Positions 18,153 to 23,031 of a stretch of 64,000 bases of DNA are shown here, piece after piece. Numbering within the stretch: position 1 is the first letter of the stretch; each line of letters begins with the position of its first letter. This DNA is from Bacteroidota bacterium (GTDB lineage Bacteria; Bacteroidota; Bacteroidia; B-17B0; Aurantibacillaceae): the NCBI GenBank assembly GCA_013697245.1, contig JACCXH010000001.1:1-64000 (forward strand), written 5' to 3'. The translations under genes and the position numbers were made by a program. The notes beneath the pieces are model-generated. The model worked only from the letters and a program-made list of their open reading frames with translations, had not been told where the DNA came from and searched no databases.

Positions 18153-20177
18153 ATGCAGTTCACTTCAAAAATTTACACCTTTAGCCTGTTAACAATTTTA
18201 TTTTTCTCAAATTGTAAACGAAATTCTTTTGAAGTAGAAAAATTCAATCCACTTAGCAATTACAACACAAAAAAAAACGATTCCACTTTTTTAATTACAA
18301 CAGACCTTAGTAATTCTGTACTTTATGGAATAGAAATACCAACGGTAAAACAACTTCCAAATGGCAAATTTACTTTTGAGTTCTCCATAAAAAATAACGG
18401 AGCTCCTCAACAATTTTTTTATAAATTATATTATCAGAATGAATCTTATAAATGGGAGAATGGCGATTCGTTAGATACCGAGAACTTTTATGGCAGTTGG
18501 GACGTTGTTGAAATGGAATATAAGTCTACACCCATTATTGAAAAAGAGTTGGCTGTAAAAGATAGTTTTAGGATAATTGGCAACCCCCGTGACGAAAAAT
18601 TATATTATGGCGCCGATCCTGAAAAAACATTTATGAACGATTCGCTACTGAAAGGTTTTATTAAAAAAGTTAATTCAGAAAGCGATTGGGTTGAAAGTAT
18701 TAAACAAAAAGCAATAGGAAACAAGATCTCGATAGAAGAACAAACGTATTTGGAAGCCCTCTGGTCTATCGACAATAGCTTTCAAACCGATTCGGTTTAT
18801 AACAATCGTTATAAACGAAACCCACGTATGGGCAATTATAAATTCTTATTAGTGGTGTGTGATGGAGTTGGCTTATCTAAAATTCCGGATGACGTTAAAA
18901 GTATCGGCAAAAAAAACGAGAAAGGTAATTTTACAAACCCCTTCACTTATTTTTTAATGAACGAAGGTAAAAACTTAGAAGGCACAAAAGTAATGCTTGC
19001 CAAACAGCAACTGGCCGTTAGTTCCAGCCTTGATCTTGGTTCAGGGCTTTATGTAGATAAGTTAAAGATCAACAGTTCAAAGATCAATACTTCTGCTTTT
19101 AAACCAAATTGCAATACTTCCGAAACTTTGCGCCGCACAGCGCATTTCTCACAATATTTCCACCACATAAATAAAACTATCGAATTTGTAAATGTAAAAG
19201 AGATACGTGATGTGATCGCAGAAAATTTTACACGCGAGCAATACGCAGATCTTATTAGTTCGTATGGTAAAAGCAAAAACTTTATTCATACATATAGCAG
19301 TGTAACAGATTGTCCATGTAAAACGGTAACTTCCGATAATGATTCAAAAGCCATTACAATTTTTAATCCTGCCAATGCACCAAACGAATTTAAGAAAGAG
19401 CATGTTGGCGTTATTTCACGTATTGGTTTTACGTATGGTAAATGGTGCGCAAAAATAAAATTCCCAAAAATAATGTCAAAAGATAATGTTTGGAATGGTC
19501 TAACAACTGCATTTTGGTTGATCTTCCAGGCCGATTCAAAATGGAACATGCGCCGCATTTGTAAATCGGATGTGGGTTATATTCCAAAACAATTTCCGGA
19601 TGATGAAGGATCAGTAAAAGAAGCAAGGCCGCAGGTAACTTATTCTGAGATCGATTTTGAGATCTTAAAAGAATCTAAATACTGGACCAAATCAGCGTAT
19701 AATAACGGAGATAATTACCCGAAGGAAGACGCGTCAAAAAATAATGATCTTACTATTTGTTGCACCAATTGGGATATGGGTTGCCAGCAACCAAAAAATT
19801 ATGTTATTGGTGCAAAAAAAATAAATGTCGATGGAAAAGAAATAGAATTTTGTCGATGGAATTATTTTAATAAACTGGTTACATCAAAAGTATCAGCGCC
19901 GCATGAAGAAGTATTTAATGATGATTTTTATTATTTTGAGATCGATTGGCAGCCGCAACGTATCATTTGGCGCATTGGAAAAGATAAGAATAATTTAAAG
20001 GAGATTTGTAGTATGAATAATGAAATGACAAGTATTCCAAACAACCAAATGCTAATGGTGATGTCGCAGGAGTTTCATTACCAGGAATGGTGGCCAACAG
20101 CCCCCTTCCAGCAAAATTACACACCTTTTCCTAAAAACGACTTGGTCGGAAAATTATTGGAGGTAGAGATTCGGTAA
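18153..20177 (+). CDS. GH16-like glycoside hydrolase lipoprotein
   Basis: A 674-residue lipoprotein: hydrophobic signal with Cys21 in LFFSNCKR, a relaxed Bacteroidota lipobox. The N-terminal half is uncharacterised and includes, at residues ~165-207, a short helical module (WVESIKQKA then ISIEEQ) that recurs twice in the protein two genes downstream. The C-terminal ~260 residues fit a GH16-type concanavalin-like fold: ISRIGFTYGKWCAKIKFP, AFWLIF, then SEIDFEIL. The EIDFE core (Glu499, Asp501, Glu503) is the GH16 catalytic signature (nucleophile, assisting Asp, acid/base). FEIDWQPQRIIWRI follows, as in that family. GH16 enzymes cleave beta-glucans, agars and related polymers; the substrate here is unknown. 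The stop overlaps the AlgI-like start (TAATG), so a role in trimming or releasing the acetylated polysaccharide is inferred. Confidence 0.85.
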   Translation: MQFTSKIYTFSLLTILFFSNCKRNSFEVEKFNPLSNYNTKKNDSTFLITTDLSNSVLYGIEIPTVKQLPNGKFTFEFSIKNNGAPQQFFYKLYYQNESYKWENGDSLDTENFYGSWDVVEMEYKSTPIIEKELAVKDSFRIIGNPRDEKLYYGADPEKTFMNDSLLKGFIKKVNSESDWVESIKQKAIGNKISIEEQTYLEALWSIDNSFQTDSVYNNRYKRNPRMGNYKFLLVVCDGVGLSKIPDDVKSIGKKNEKGNFTNPFTYFLMNEGKNLEGTKVMLAKQQLAVSSSLDLGSGLYVDKLKINSSKINTSAFKPNCNTSETLRRTAHFSQYFHHINKTIEFVNVKEIRDVIAENFTREQYADLISSYGKSKNFIHTYSSVTDCPCKTVTSDNDSKAITIFNPANAPNEFKKEHVGVISRIGFTYGKWCAKIKFPKIMSKDNVWNGLTTAFWLIFQADSKWNMRRICKSDVGYIPKQFPDDEGSVKEARPQVTYSEIDFEILKESKYWTKSAYNNGDNYPKEDASKNNDLTICCTNWDMGCQQPKNYVIGAKKINVDGKEIEFCRWNYFNKLVTSKVSAPHEEVFNDDFYYFEIDWQPQRIIWRIGKDKNNLKEICSMNNEMTSIPNNQMLMVMSQEFHYQEWWPTAPFQQNYTPFPKNDLVGKLLEVEIR

Positions 20178-21604
20178 TGGTATTTAGCAGCATCATATTT
20201 TTACTTTATTTTTTCCCGATCGTATTTATACTTTATTTTTTGCTGCACAATAAAGTAAAGAATGCTTTTTTACTTATTGTAAGTATTTTGTTTTACATGT
20301 GGGGCGCGCCAAAATTTATTTTCGCGATTTTAATTACAACCTGTTTGGATTTCTTTTTGGTTAAAACAATGTCCAACTCTTCTTCTGAGAAAAAGCGAAA
20401 ATTATTCCTTGTACTTTCGTTAAGTTTAAATGTAGGCATGTTATTTTATTTTAAATACTGCAATTTCTTTATTGATAATGCCAATGCCATTTTAGGTGTG
20501 TTTACAACCAAACAAGTTCATTGGGCCGATATTGTTCTACCAATCGGTATTTCATTCTATACCTTCGAAAGTTTAACGTATGTAGTAGATGTATATAGAC
20601 GTGTACACAAGCCACTTGATAATTTTTGGGATTACCAACTCTATATTATTTTGTTTCCGAAATTAATCGCGGGCCCAATTATTCGGTATCACGAACTTTC
20701 CGATCAAATAAAAGGTAGAATTGGCAAAGAAACCATTGATGGCGCGCTTACAGGTTTTTACCGATTTATTATTGGTTTAAGTAAAAAGGTTTTAATTGCC
20801 AATACTATGGCTGCCTTTGCCGATCAGGTATTTAATACAAAAATCGCCGAATTAAATACATCAATGGCCTGGTTGGGAATGTTTGCTTATACCTTTCAGA
20901 TCTATTTTGATTTTAGCGGTTATAGTGATATGGCCATTGGTATGGGAAAAATGCTGGGCTTTAAATTCCCCGAGAATTTTAATAATCCTTACACTTCTTT
21001 AAGCATTACCGAATTTTGGCGCAGGTGGCACATGACATTAGGCGCCTGGATGAAAAATTATTTATACATCCCTTTAGGAGGTAACCGGGTAAATTCTAAA
21101 ATGAAATTATTTTTTAATTTATGGTTGGTGTTTTTAATATCAGGGTTTTGGCATGGTGCCGCGTGGACCTTTATTTTTTGGGGAATATACCATGGCCTAT
21201 TATTAATTGCTGAACGTTTATTTTTATTAAAAATTTATGCTAAGCTTCCAAAGTTCATCCCACTTATTATCACATTTTTATTAGTAGCTGTTGGCTGGGT
21301 ATTTTTTAGGGCCGATTCTTTTAAAGGCGCTGTTCTATTTGTAAAAAAATTAGTTTCATTTAATTCTAACATTAATTACATTTACATTAATAGCGAAATT
21401 GTATTTTATTTTACGCTTGCAATTTTATTTTCGTTCATCACATTAACATCAGTAGGTAAAAAATTACAGGAGCGTATCTTCTTTTCAAATTATTCTCCTG
21501 TAGGTTATATTGTAGCTACCTTATGCAGTATTACTTTATTTTATTATTGTGTAGCTTCTATTTCATCCAGTACGTTTAACCCTTTTATTTATTTTAGATT
21601 TTAA
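20177..21604 (+). CDS. AlgI-type MBOAT polysaccharide O-acyltransferase
   Basis: A 475-residue polytopic membrane protein of the MBOAT family. The signature EFWRRWHMTLGAWMKNYLYI (His285) and ISGFWHGAAWTFIFWG (His326, corresponding to the essential MBOAT histidine) are both present, with about ten hydrophobic segments. AlgI-type proteins carry acetyl groups across the inner membrane and pass them to a periplasmic SGNH partner that acetylates an exopolysaccharide. That partner is encoded immediately downstream with a 1-bp overlap (TAATG), and the same overlap joins the upstream GH16-like gene. Length is normal for the family. The acceptor polymer is unknown. Confidence 0.93.
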   Translation: MVFSSIIFLLYFFPIVFILYFLLHNKVKNAFLLIVSILFYMWGAPKFIFAILITTCLDFFLVKTMSNSSSEKKRKLFLVLSLSLNVGMLFYFKYCNFFIDNANAILGVFTTKQVHWADIVLPIGISFYTFESLTYVVDVYRRVHKPLDNFWDYQLYIILFPKLIAGPIIRYHELSDQIKGRIGKETIDGALTGFYRFIIGLSKKVLIANTMAAFADQVFNTKIAELNTSMAWLGMFAYTFQIYFDFSGYSDMAIGMGKMLGFKFPENFNNPYTSLSITEFWRRWHMTLGAWMKNYLYIPLGGNRVNSKMKLFFNLWLVFLISGFWHGAAWTFIFWGIYHGLLLIAERLFLLKIYAKLPKFIPLIITFLLVAVGWVFFRADSFKGAVLFVKKLVSFNSNINYIYINSEIVFYFTLAILFSFITLTSVGKKLQERIFFSNYSPVGYIVATLCSITLFYYCVASISSSTFNPFIYFRF

Positions 21605-23031
21605 TGCAAACAACTTTAAAATACATATTAGGTTTTATAATTGCCATTGCATTATTGCTGCCAATACTGCAATCTAATTTCGAACTTATAGAGTTAAAAC
21701 CTTTAGAAGCTATTACCGTTGCGCAAAAGCCTGAATTTAAAAAAGAAAATTATTGGCGCCTTAACTGGCAGGAAAATTACGCCACGTATTTAAACGATAA
21801 TTTTGGCTTCAGGCCTTGGTTAATTCGTTTTTATAACGAGTTTCAAATGACTTTATTTAAAACAACCAAAGCGCCGGGTGTTGTTGTTGGTAAAAATGGC
21901 GAACTTTTTATTGAATCGTACATTGATGACTATATAGGAAGAAACTTTATTGGTAATTCAAAGATCAATGAGCAGGCTTTAAAGTTAAAAGCGGTGCAGG
22001 ATTCTCTGAAAGCCCGTGGTAAAGATCTTATTGTTGTTTTTGCACCAGGCAAGGCCTCTTTTTATCCTGAATTAATTCCGGATAGATATTTGAAGAAGAA
22101 AAAAGACAGTACAAATTATGTTTCTTTTGCCAATGCGTTTAAACAGAACGGTATCAATTTTATTGATATGAATAAATGGTTTGTAGATAATAAAACTAAA
22201 TTTAAACATAAGGTATATCCAAAATTTGGTACGCATTGGAATCATTATGGTATGTGTCTTGGATTAGACTCGATTATAAAATATATAGAGAAAAAGAGAA
22301 ACATCAACATGCCTGATTTTGATTTCTCGATCGTAAACTATAATACGGCTTTAAAAGGAAATGATTTTGATGTAGGTATTTTAACCAATTTACTTATTCC
22401 ATTAGATCCCGATCCAAATCCATACCCGATCTATAAATACAAGGCCGATGCCAATACTGTAAAGCCCGATGTATTGGTTGTTGGCGATAGTTATTGGTGG
22501 TGCCCTGTTGGCGACGACCTGCCGATACATTTTTTCAGGGAAGATGAATATTGGTTCTATAACAAAACGCAATTGGTGCATAACCAAAAACGCAAGGATG
22601 TAAAATTATTGAACCTAAGCGCTGCTTTAGCTCAAAGAGATGTGGTGTTATTAATTGCAACCGAAGCTACCTATTATATGTTCCCATATGGATTTGGCGA
22701 TGATGCTTATAAATTATATTGTAATGATAATAGTAAACGCATTAGCGAGATCATTGCGGATATGAAAAATAATAAAAGCTGGTATGAAAGTATTGTTGCA
22801 AAAGCACAAGAGAATAACATCGCCCTTGAAAAACAACTTAAACTGGATGCGGAATTTATTTTATGCACCGAGATCATCAACCCAAAAGAGACCGTTGAAC
22901 AAATTATTGACCGCATCCGAAACGATGTAAGTTGGATGAAAACCATCAAGAAAAAATCGGAAGATAAGAATATTACCATCGAACAACAGATCAAAGAAGA
23001 TGCACAATGGACCTTTGATAATAATAAATAA
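21604..23031 (+). CDS. AlgX/AlgJ-like SGNH O-acetyltransferase partner with two C-terminal helical modules
   Basis: A 475-residue protein with one N-terminal membrane segment (residues ~7-23) and a periplasmic SGNH-like domain. The nucleophile segment is VVGDSYWW (Ser296) and the His segment is FGTHWNHYG (His211). In characterised AlgX/AlgJ proteins an Asp lies two residues before the catalytic His (DxHW); here that position is Gly209, so the acidic residue is either supplied elsewhere or lost. After about residue 375 there are two copies of a ~40-residue helical module (SWYESIVAKAQENNI and SWMKTIKKKSEDKNI, each followed by an acidic/Gln-rich stretch), also found in the GH16-like protein. It overlaps the MBOAT gene by 1 bp, which fits a final acetyl-transfer step. 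Confidence 0.86.
   Translation: MQTTLKYILGFIIAIALLLPILQSNFELIELKPLEAITVAQKPEFKKENYWRLNWQENYATYLNDNFGFRPWLIRFYNEFQMTLFKTTKAPGVVVGKNGELFIESYIDDYIGRNFIGNSKINEQALKLKAVQDSLKARGKDLIVVFAPGKASFYPELIPDRYLKKKKDSTNYVSFANAFKQNGINFIDMNKWFVDNKTKFKHKVYPKFGTHWNHYGMCLGLDSIIKYIEKKRNINMPDFDFSIVNYNTALKGNDFDVGILTNLLIPLDPDPNPYPIYKYKADANTVKPDVLVVGDSYWWCPVGDDLPIHFFREDEYWFYNKTQLVHNQKRKDVKLLNLSAALAQRDVVLLIATEATYYMFPYGFGDDAYKLYCNDNSKRISEIIADMKNNKSWYESIVAKAQENNIALEKQLKLDAEFILCTEIINPKETVEQIIDRIRNDVSWMKTIKKKSEDKNITIEQQIKEDAQWTFDNNK

Follow-up and report, generated by a model that had tools for sequence, protein, structure and literature searches.

A small helical module, present in three homologous copies in two neighbouring enzymes of a Bacteroidota bacterium, marks glycan enzymes of unrelated folds in many Bacteroidia, including polytopic proteins of about 600 residues without a Pfam match. 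It is an uncatalogued accessory module of three helices which is predicted to fold independently, and its homology and distribution could be established from the sequences. We consider, with a probability of about 0.45, that it serves in the periplasm as a recruitment module, transferable between proteins, whose ligand is shared and differs from the module itself; this ligand would most likely be a scaffold or partner protein acting in an envelope-glycan pathway. A single profile allows members of such a pathway to be found in many uncultured Bacteroidia and, if the module is indeed a recruitment tag, it could be used as bait to isolate the complete machinery together with the glycan.

The locus and its three genes

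The window (the whole stretch of 64,000 nucleotides that was analysed) contains a GH16-like, an MBOAT and an AlgX-like open reading frame, all three on the forward strand and each overlapping or abutting the next. The GH16-like gene (18153..20177) encodes a lipoprotein of 674 amino acids with a signal peptide and a cysteine (Cys21) conserved in the homologue alignment, an N-terminal beta-rich domain carrying one inserted module and a C-terminal GH16 domain. The Pfam match to GH16 is just under the threshold (E 2.4e-4, 21.1 bits versus a cut-off of 22). The ExDxE signature of this family is present (YSEIDFEILKE, E499-I-D501-F-E503), and E499, D501 and E503 are invariant or nearly so in alignments of 18 and 47 homologues. 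In the AlphaFold model of the whole lipoprotein (pLDDT 91.7, pTM 0.90), residues 289-674 adopt the GH16 jelly-roll fold, matching GH16 structures with Z up to 17.6 and a Foldseek E of 1e-8.

The second gene (20177..21604) encodes an MBOAT O-acyltransferase of 475 amino acids (Pfam MBOAT, E 2.9e-33). Its C-terminus is FIYFRF (21584-21601, forward strand), which fits FxYxxF, a motif known from PatA and DltX as an acyl shuttle (PMC12148441) and kept in 77/77 homologues. The third gene (21604..23031) encodes an AlgX-like SGNH protein, also of 475 amino acids, with an N-terminal membrane anchor, an SGNH domain and tandem modules at the C-terminus (Pfam ALGX, E 3e-16). AlgJ (4o8v) is matched with an E of 4.8e-5, the phmmer alignment to it spanning residues 90-269 only. 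H211 and S296 are invariant in 112 aligned sequences, and Gly209 (window 22228-22230) aligns with the Asp of the DxH triad motif of AlgJ, so that the motif reads GxHW here. Gly occupies this position in 107 of 129 AlgX-like homologues and Asp in 6; for this reason the window protein is not filed as AlgX proper. The acyltransferases with Gly may rely on Ser and His alone or on a different acid. A second MBOAT-AlgX pair occurs in the same genome (L002:1327-2670, G000:C30), and the C-terminus of its AlgX-like protein is a decayed fourth module (NKQIQVYAKQIRETPGLLKK..LDSAIRVDAMKM) that has lost the Trp.

The helical module and its predicted fold

The earlier note on this DNA had described one copy of a helical module in the GH16-like lipoprotein and two in the AlgX-like protein, with none in the MBOAT between them, and all of these observations hold. 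Copy A (18639..18788, forward strand) covers residues 163-212 of the GH16-like lipoprotein, with helices at 163-175, 177-190 and 194-212, and contains DWVESIKQKA from residue 178 and the ending KISIEEQ..EALW. Copies B (22732..22878) and C (22894..23028) follow each other on the same strand at the end of the AlgX-like protein. Copy B comprises residues 377-425 (helices 377-389, 391-403 and 408-425), with SWYESIVAKA from residue 392 and the ending DAEF; copy C comprises residues 431-475 (helices 431-440, 442-455 and 459-474), with SWMKTIKKKS from residue 443 and the ending DAQW. The module is likewise missing from the relatives of the MBOAT. The three copies are homologous: their pairwise local BLOSUM62 scores of 67, 79 and 84 stand against shuffle means of 25-26 (z = 8.6, 10.5 and 11.3) and were reached by 0/1000 shuffles. 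The size of 35-40 residues proposed at first had to be corrected to about 45-50, as the first helix begins some 15 residues ahead of the Trp.

AlphaFold predicts three helices per copy for the tandem of copies B and C with a pLDDT of 93, their lengths being 13, 13 and 18 residues in B and 10, 14 and 16 in C; the pTM of 0.58 leaves the relative placing of the two copies uncertain. These three helices recur in copy A in the model of the whole GH16-like protein (pLDDT about 90-93), where the N-terminal domain accommodates the copy between its strands 132-139 and 227-236. The alignment of 387 copies from three host classes gives the consensus I-x5-W-x3-[IV]-x2-K-A ... [ED]-x2-L-x2-D-A-x-[WYF]. The residues conserved across all host classes can be read, from the alignment, as core, capping or internal K-D pair; the suggested roles are a hydrophobic core, an Ala-Ala helix contact, a Lys-Asp pair and an S/T-x-D/E helix cap. 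No conserved ligand site could be named from the residues common to all classes in these 387 copies, and the mean net charge varies from class to class while staying close to zero (-1.0, -0.5 and +0.3).

Searches of Pfam, NCBIfam and PDB gave no credible match for the module. Scans of single copies against Pfam, NCBIfam and PHROGs returned scattered weak matches, each in one to three of the copies, and TPR or armadillo families were absent from the Pfam matches of 25 copies. The PDB profile matches to armadillo or toroid repeats were designed repeats only and were rejected as an effect of composition: they span about 14 residues summed over identical repeats, and no single repeat is significant. 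Dockerin, TPR and armadillo identities were all discarded, the first by the absence of its loop and the others by the lack of a family match. The fold search of PDB with the tandem model was not significant either (best Foldseek E 2.3, best Z 4.3), and Escherichia coli YdbL (28oj; prob 0.41, Z 3.5) is too weak a candidate to be used as a fold relative. Related to this, no description of such a module was found in open-access papers, bearing in mind that absence of a family from the libraries does not prove that nobody has seen it.

Distribution and host proteins

Profile A2 detected the module in 51/120 relatives (22/57 genera), and profile A4 in 92 of 395 sampled Bacteroidia genomes, which belong to 54 of 199 genera. 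In the phylum sample it appeared in 0/295 other genomes among the matches listed, where positives are a lower bound, owing also to the composition of this sample, and no absence is claimed. An alignment search of 84,980 genomes with the GH16-like protein yielded 277 relatives, 80 of which were kept; all 80 genes bear the module and nearly all are labelled Bacteroidota. Across the fetched loci the profile matches 308/2465 ORFs, and it matches nothing once these ORFs are reversed or shuffled; these loci were partly chosen for carrying the module and only the contrast with the reversed or shuffled ORFs counts. A plasmid search with the AlgX-like protein gave no match.

The earlier note had proposed such a profile search, with enrichment in MBOAT-linked or polysaccharide-acetylation proteins as the outcome that would support its idea, and the matches are mainly MBOAT-linked AlgX-like proteins and GH16-like lipoproteins, together with further enzymes of envelope glycans, and they cluster at a single locus. 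The new host ORFs of the class sample comprise 34 AlgX-like proteins, 17 GH16-like proteins and 35 others; among the 32 scannable others, Pfam recognises 9 PMT_2, 5 Wzy_C with TPR, 2 GDSL lipases, 1 CotH, 1 NAGPA and 1 VTT. Among the remaining hosts, many are polytopic, about 530-640 residues long, and bear the module at their extreme C-terminus, some 150-200 residues past the last transmembrane helix, and we infer that these tails are periplasmic; those of about 600 residues have no Pfam match, and a home-made GT-C profile classified no host. Taken together, the hosts are almost entirely envelope-glycan proteins with a signal peptide, an anchor or many transmembrane helices: GH16-like lipoproteins, MBOAT-linked AlgX-like proteins, PMT_2/GT-C-like glycosyltransferases, Wzy_C ligases with TPR and GDSL esterases. 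Wzy_C-type ligases in which a TPR stretch is followed by one C-terminal module are found at L116:4969-7077, L128:179-2314 and L308:2681-4750.

The module is a C-terminal appendage of one to three copies on AlgX-like, GT-C-like, Wzy_C and GDSL hosts and a loop insert in GH16-like proteins. Its usual place at the extreme C-terminus would suit a sorting or processing signal recognised during export. Such a role is nevertheless highly improbable, given the internal position in GH16-like proteins and in one NAGPA-type protein, the copy number of one to three and the fact that most genomes are devoid of the module.

Six GH16-like relatives (L137, L138, L306, L328, L271 and L326) lack exactly the module segment, GNPRNE passing through a short linker to NNRWKRNPR. 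L306, L328, L271 and L326 lie in module-positive genomes and have another module-bearing gene 0.1-2.9 kb away in 4/4 cases; since these regions were fetched for holding the module, the closeness is informative and 4/4 is not a rate. The neighbouring genes encode a GDSY-motif protein with two modules, a polytopic protein, a second polytopic protein of similar build and a protein like the GDSY group. In another locus (L269:5643-7817) the insert of the GH16-like protein contains two modules rather than one.

Two species of one genus have stand-alone lipoproteins of about 140 amino acids, in which a signal peptide and lipobox precede two modules and nothing else is present. One of them (L267:3806-4237) lies immediately ahead of an MBOAT-AlgX pair and another (L088:3894-4310) near a GH16-like gene. 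These proteins, as well as the module supplied by a neighbour of the module-less GH16-like genes, fit an interaction element. They also bear on the idea that the module has no binding partner and serves solely to stabilise or cap the protein that carries it. The confident packing of copy A in the GH16-like model and the structural look of the conserved residues agree with this idea, but lipoproteins made of two modules alone make a purely structural role unlikely. The presence of the module on unrelated host folds, the GH16-like proteins that do without it and the clustering of hosts at loci speak against it too, and it is held to be very unlikely.

Gene linkage and copy number

Hosts are clustered. 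In genomes with at least two hosts, another host lies within 15 kb for 50/78 host ORFs of the profile A2 set and for 31/32 of a second set, compared with 1.4 and 0.8, respectively, expected by random placing in 4 Mb. At half of the GH16-like loci (40/80) an AlgX-like gene with a module lies no more than 8 kb away, located downstream on the same strand in 25, downstream on the opposite strand in 9, upstream on the same strand in 4 and upstream on the opposite strand in 2. The linkage thus survives rearrangement into four relative orders, an indication that the genes serve a common function. A search of the flanking genes for a conserved third partner found none: no family recurs in more than 3 of 82 neighbours, and these neighbours, mostly housekeeping genes, gave no recurrent clue to the polymer.

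In seven loci (L079, L080, L082, L162, L206, L214 and L215) AlgX-like genes form tandem arrays, with up to three MBOAT genes inside about 10 kb, and most of the AlgX-like copies bear their own module; this organisation suggests several acylations of one glycan. At L085:11006-11726, a broken MBOAT gene and a 61-residue remnant of an AlgX-like tail with an intact module adjoin an intact GH16-like gene.

Copies in adjacent partners could mean that the modules pair with each other and so build an enzyme complex. Of the AlgX-like genes that share a locus with a GH16-like gene, all 63 bear at least one module and 40/63 bear two or three, whereas among 48 AlgX-like genes without such a partner 8 have no module at the threshold and only 7 have two or more; this comparison ignores relatedness, and the unlinked set was partly fetched for carrying the module. 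However, 20 near-complete genomes from 19 genera possess one module copy each at E <= 0.001, with all candidates scored and the search taken down to E 0.1, where a single genome showed a marginal second match (E = 0.09). In the class sample, 69 positive genomes reach a completeness of at least 95%, and 44 of them show one copy among the matches listed. Where the genome has one copy, no partner enzyme offers a second one to pair with and, consequently, docking between modules is not the general function, although self-pairing of lone copies into homodimers is possible. Besides, GH16-like and AlgX copies from a shared locus resemble each other no more than copies from separate loci do (permutation p 0.61), and the same comparison revealed no recent gene conversion between partner copies. 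The copies follow the host class instead (95% of the GH16-like copies have Gln at position 30, where most other copies have Met or Ala), which implies that the module settled in its hosts long ago. Pairing of modules between enzymes is therefore an unlikely explanation. The earlier note had suggested a docking or scaffold element bringing the enzymes together or to a common site: the common site is still viable, whereas bringing the two enzymes together does not stand as a general role.

Proposed function

In the recruitment reading, each copy would bind the shared non-module ligand on the periplasmic face, and a hydrolase and an MBOAT/SGNH acetyltransferase (elsewhere a transferase or a ligase) would be gathered to act at one spot on a single polymer. 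From what is known of these families, the MBOAT of the window would load an acyl group onto its C-terminal Tyr, the AlgX-like protein would hand this group to the glycan, and trimming or editing of the glycan would fall to the GH16 lipoprotein. Recruitment is favoured by the single profile that covers all hosts, the homology of the copies, the confident three-helix models, the envelope-glycan nature of the hosts, their clustering, the stand-alone forms and the sufficiency of one copy per genome. It is weakened by the lack of a recurrent partner gene and of a nameable ligand site, and by the patchy distribution (92/395).

The other explanation to be weighed is that the polymer itself is what the helices bind: the module would then do the work of a carbohydrate-binding module, though helical in build, and hold the enzyme on its substrate. 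What the hosts have in common is substrates rather than sequence, one copy per genome would be enough, tandem copies would confer avidity and anchored dual-module lipoproteins exist; in Pseudomonas aeruginosa AlgX, moreover, the SGNH domain is followed by a carbohydrate-binding module (PMC4148444, PMC9734138), at the same place as the modules described here. On the other hand, the predicted fold is all-helical, no conserved exposed aromatic site is demonstrable and the near-zero net charge, variable between host classes, indicates that there is no common polyanion binding. Glycan binding is possible but rather doubtful, and recruitment is slightly preferred to it because the fold explains the conserved residues, the charge is variable and no ligand-like surface common to the hosts is apparent.

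A broader form of the recruitment reading, fairly doubtful at present, is that the module is the general address tag of a new periplasmic assembly, in which hydrolases, acetyltransferases, GT-C transferases and ligases dock on one scaffold and the dual-module lipoproteins act as free adaptors. If true, this would be a cellulosome-like organisation for making and editing a surface glycan rather than degrading one.

Comparison with known systems

As in PatA/PatB and AlgI/AlgJ/AlgX, an MBOAT with a C-terminal FxYxxF adjoins an AlgX/AlgJ-type SGNH protein with invariant Ser and His. The window system differs from both in the one to three helical modules behind the SGNH domain of the AlgX-like protein and in the linked GH16-like lipoprotein with the same module, and from AlgJ/AlgX in the replacement of the DxH Asp by Gly in most members. 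The carbohydrate-binding module of P. aeruginosa AlgX has no sequence match to the repeats found here, which are predicted to be all-helical units of about 45 residues and are present in many other enzyme classes. Like dockerins, the module is small, helical, partly in tandem and common to different glycan enzymes; unlike them, it has three helices per unit, no cohesin-like partner was found and the calcium-binding DxDxDG-type loop is absent from the consensus of the 387 aligned copies. Finally, the lipoprotein of the window shares with GH16 glycoside hydrolases the jelly-roll fold and the ExDxE site of its catalytic domain, and departs from them in having an N-terminal domain of unknown family with an inserted helical module and linked acyltransferase genes.
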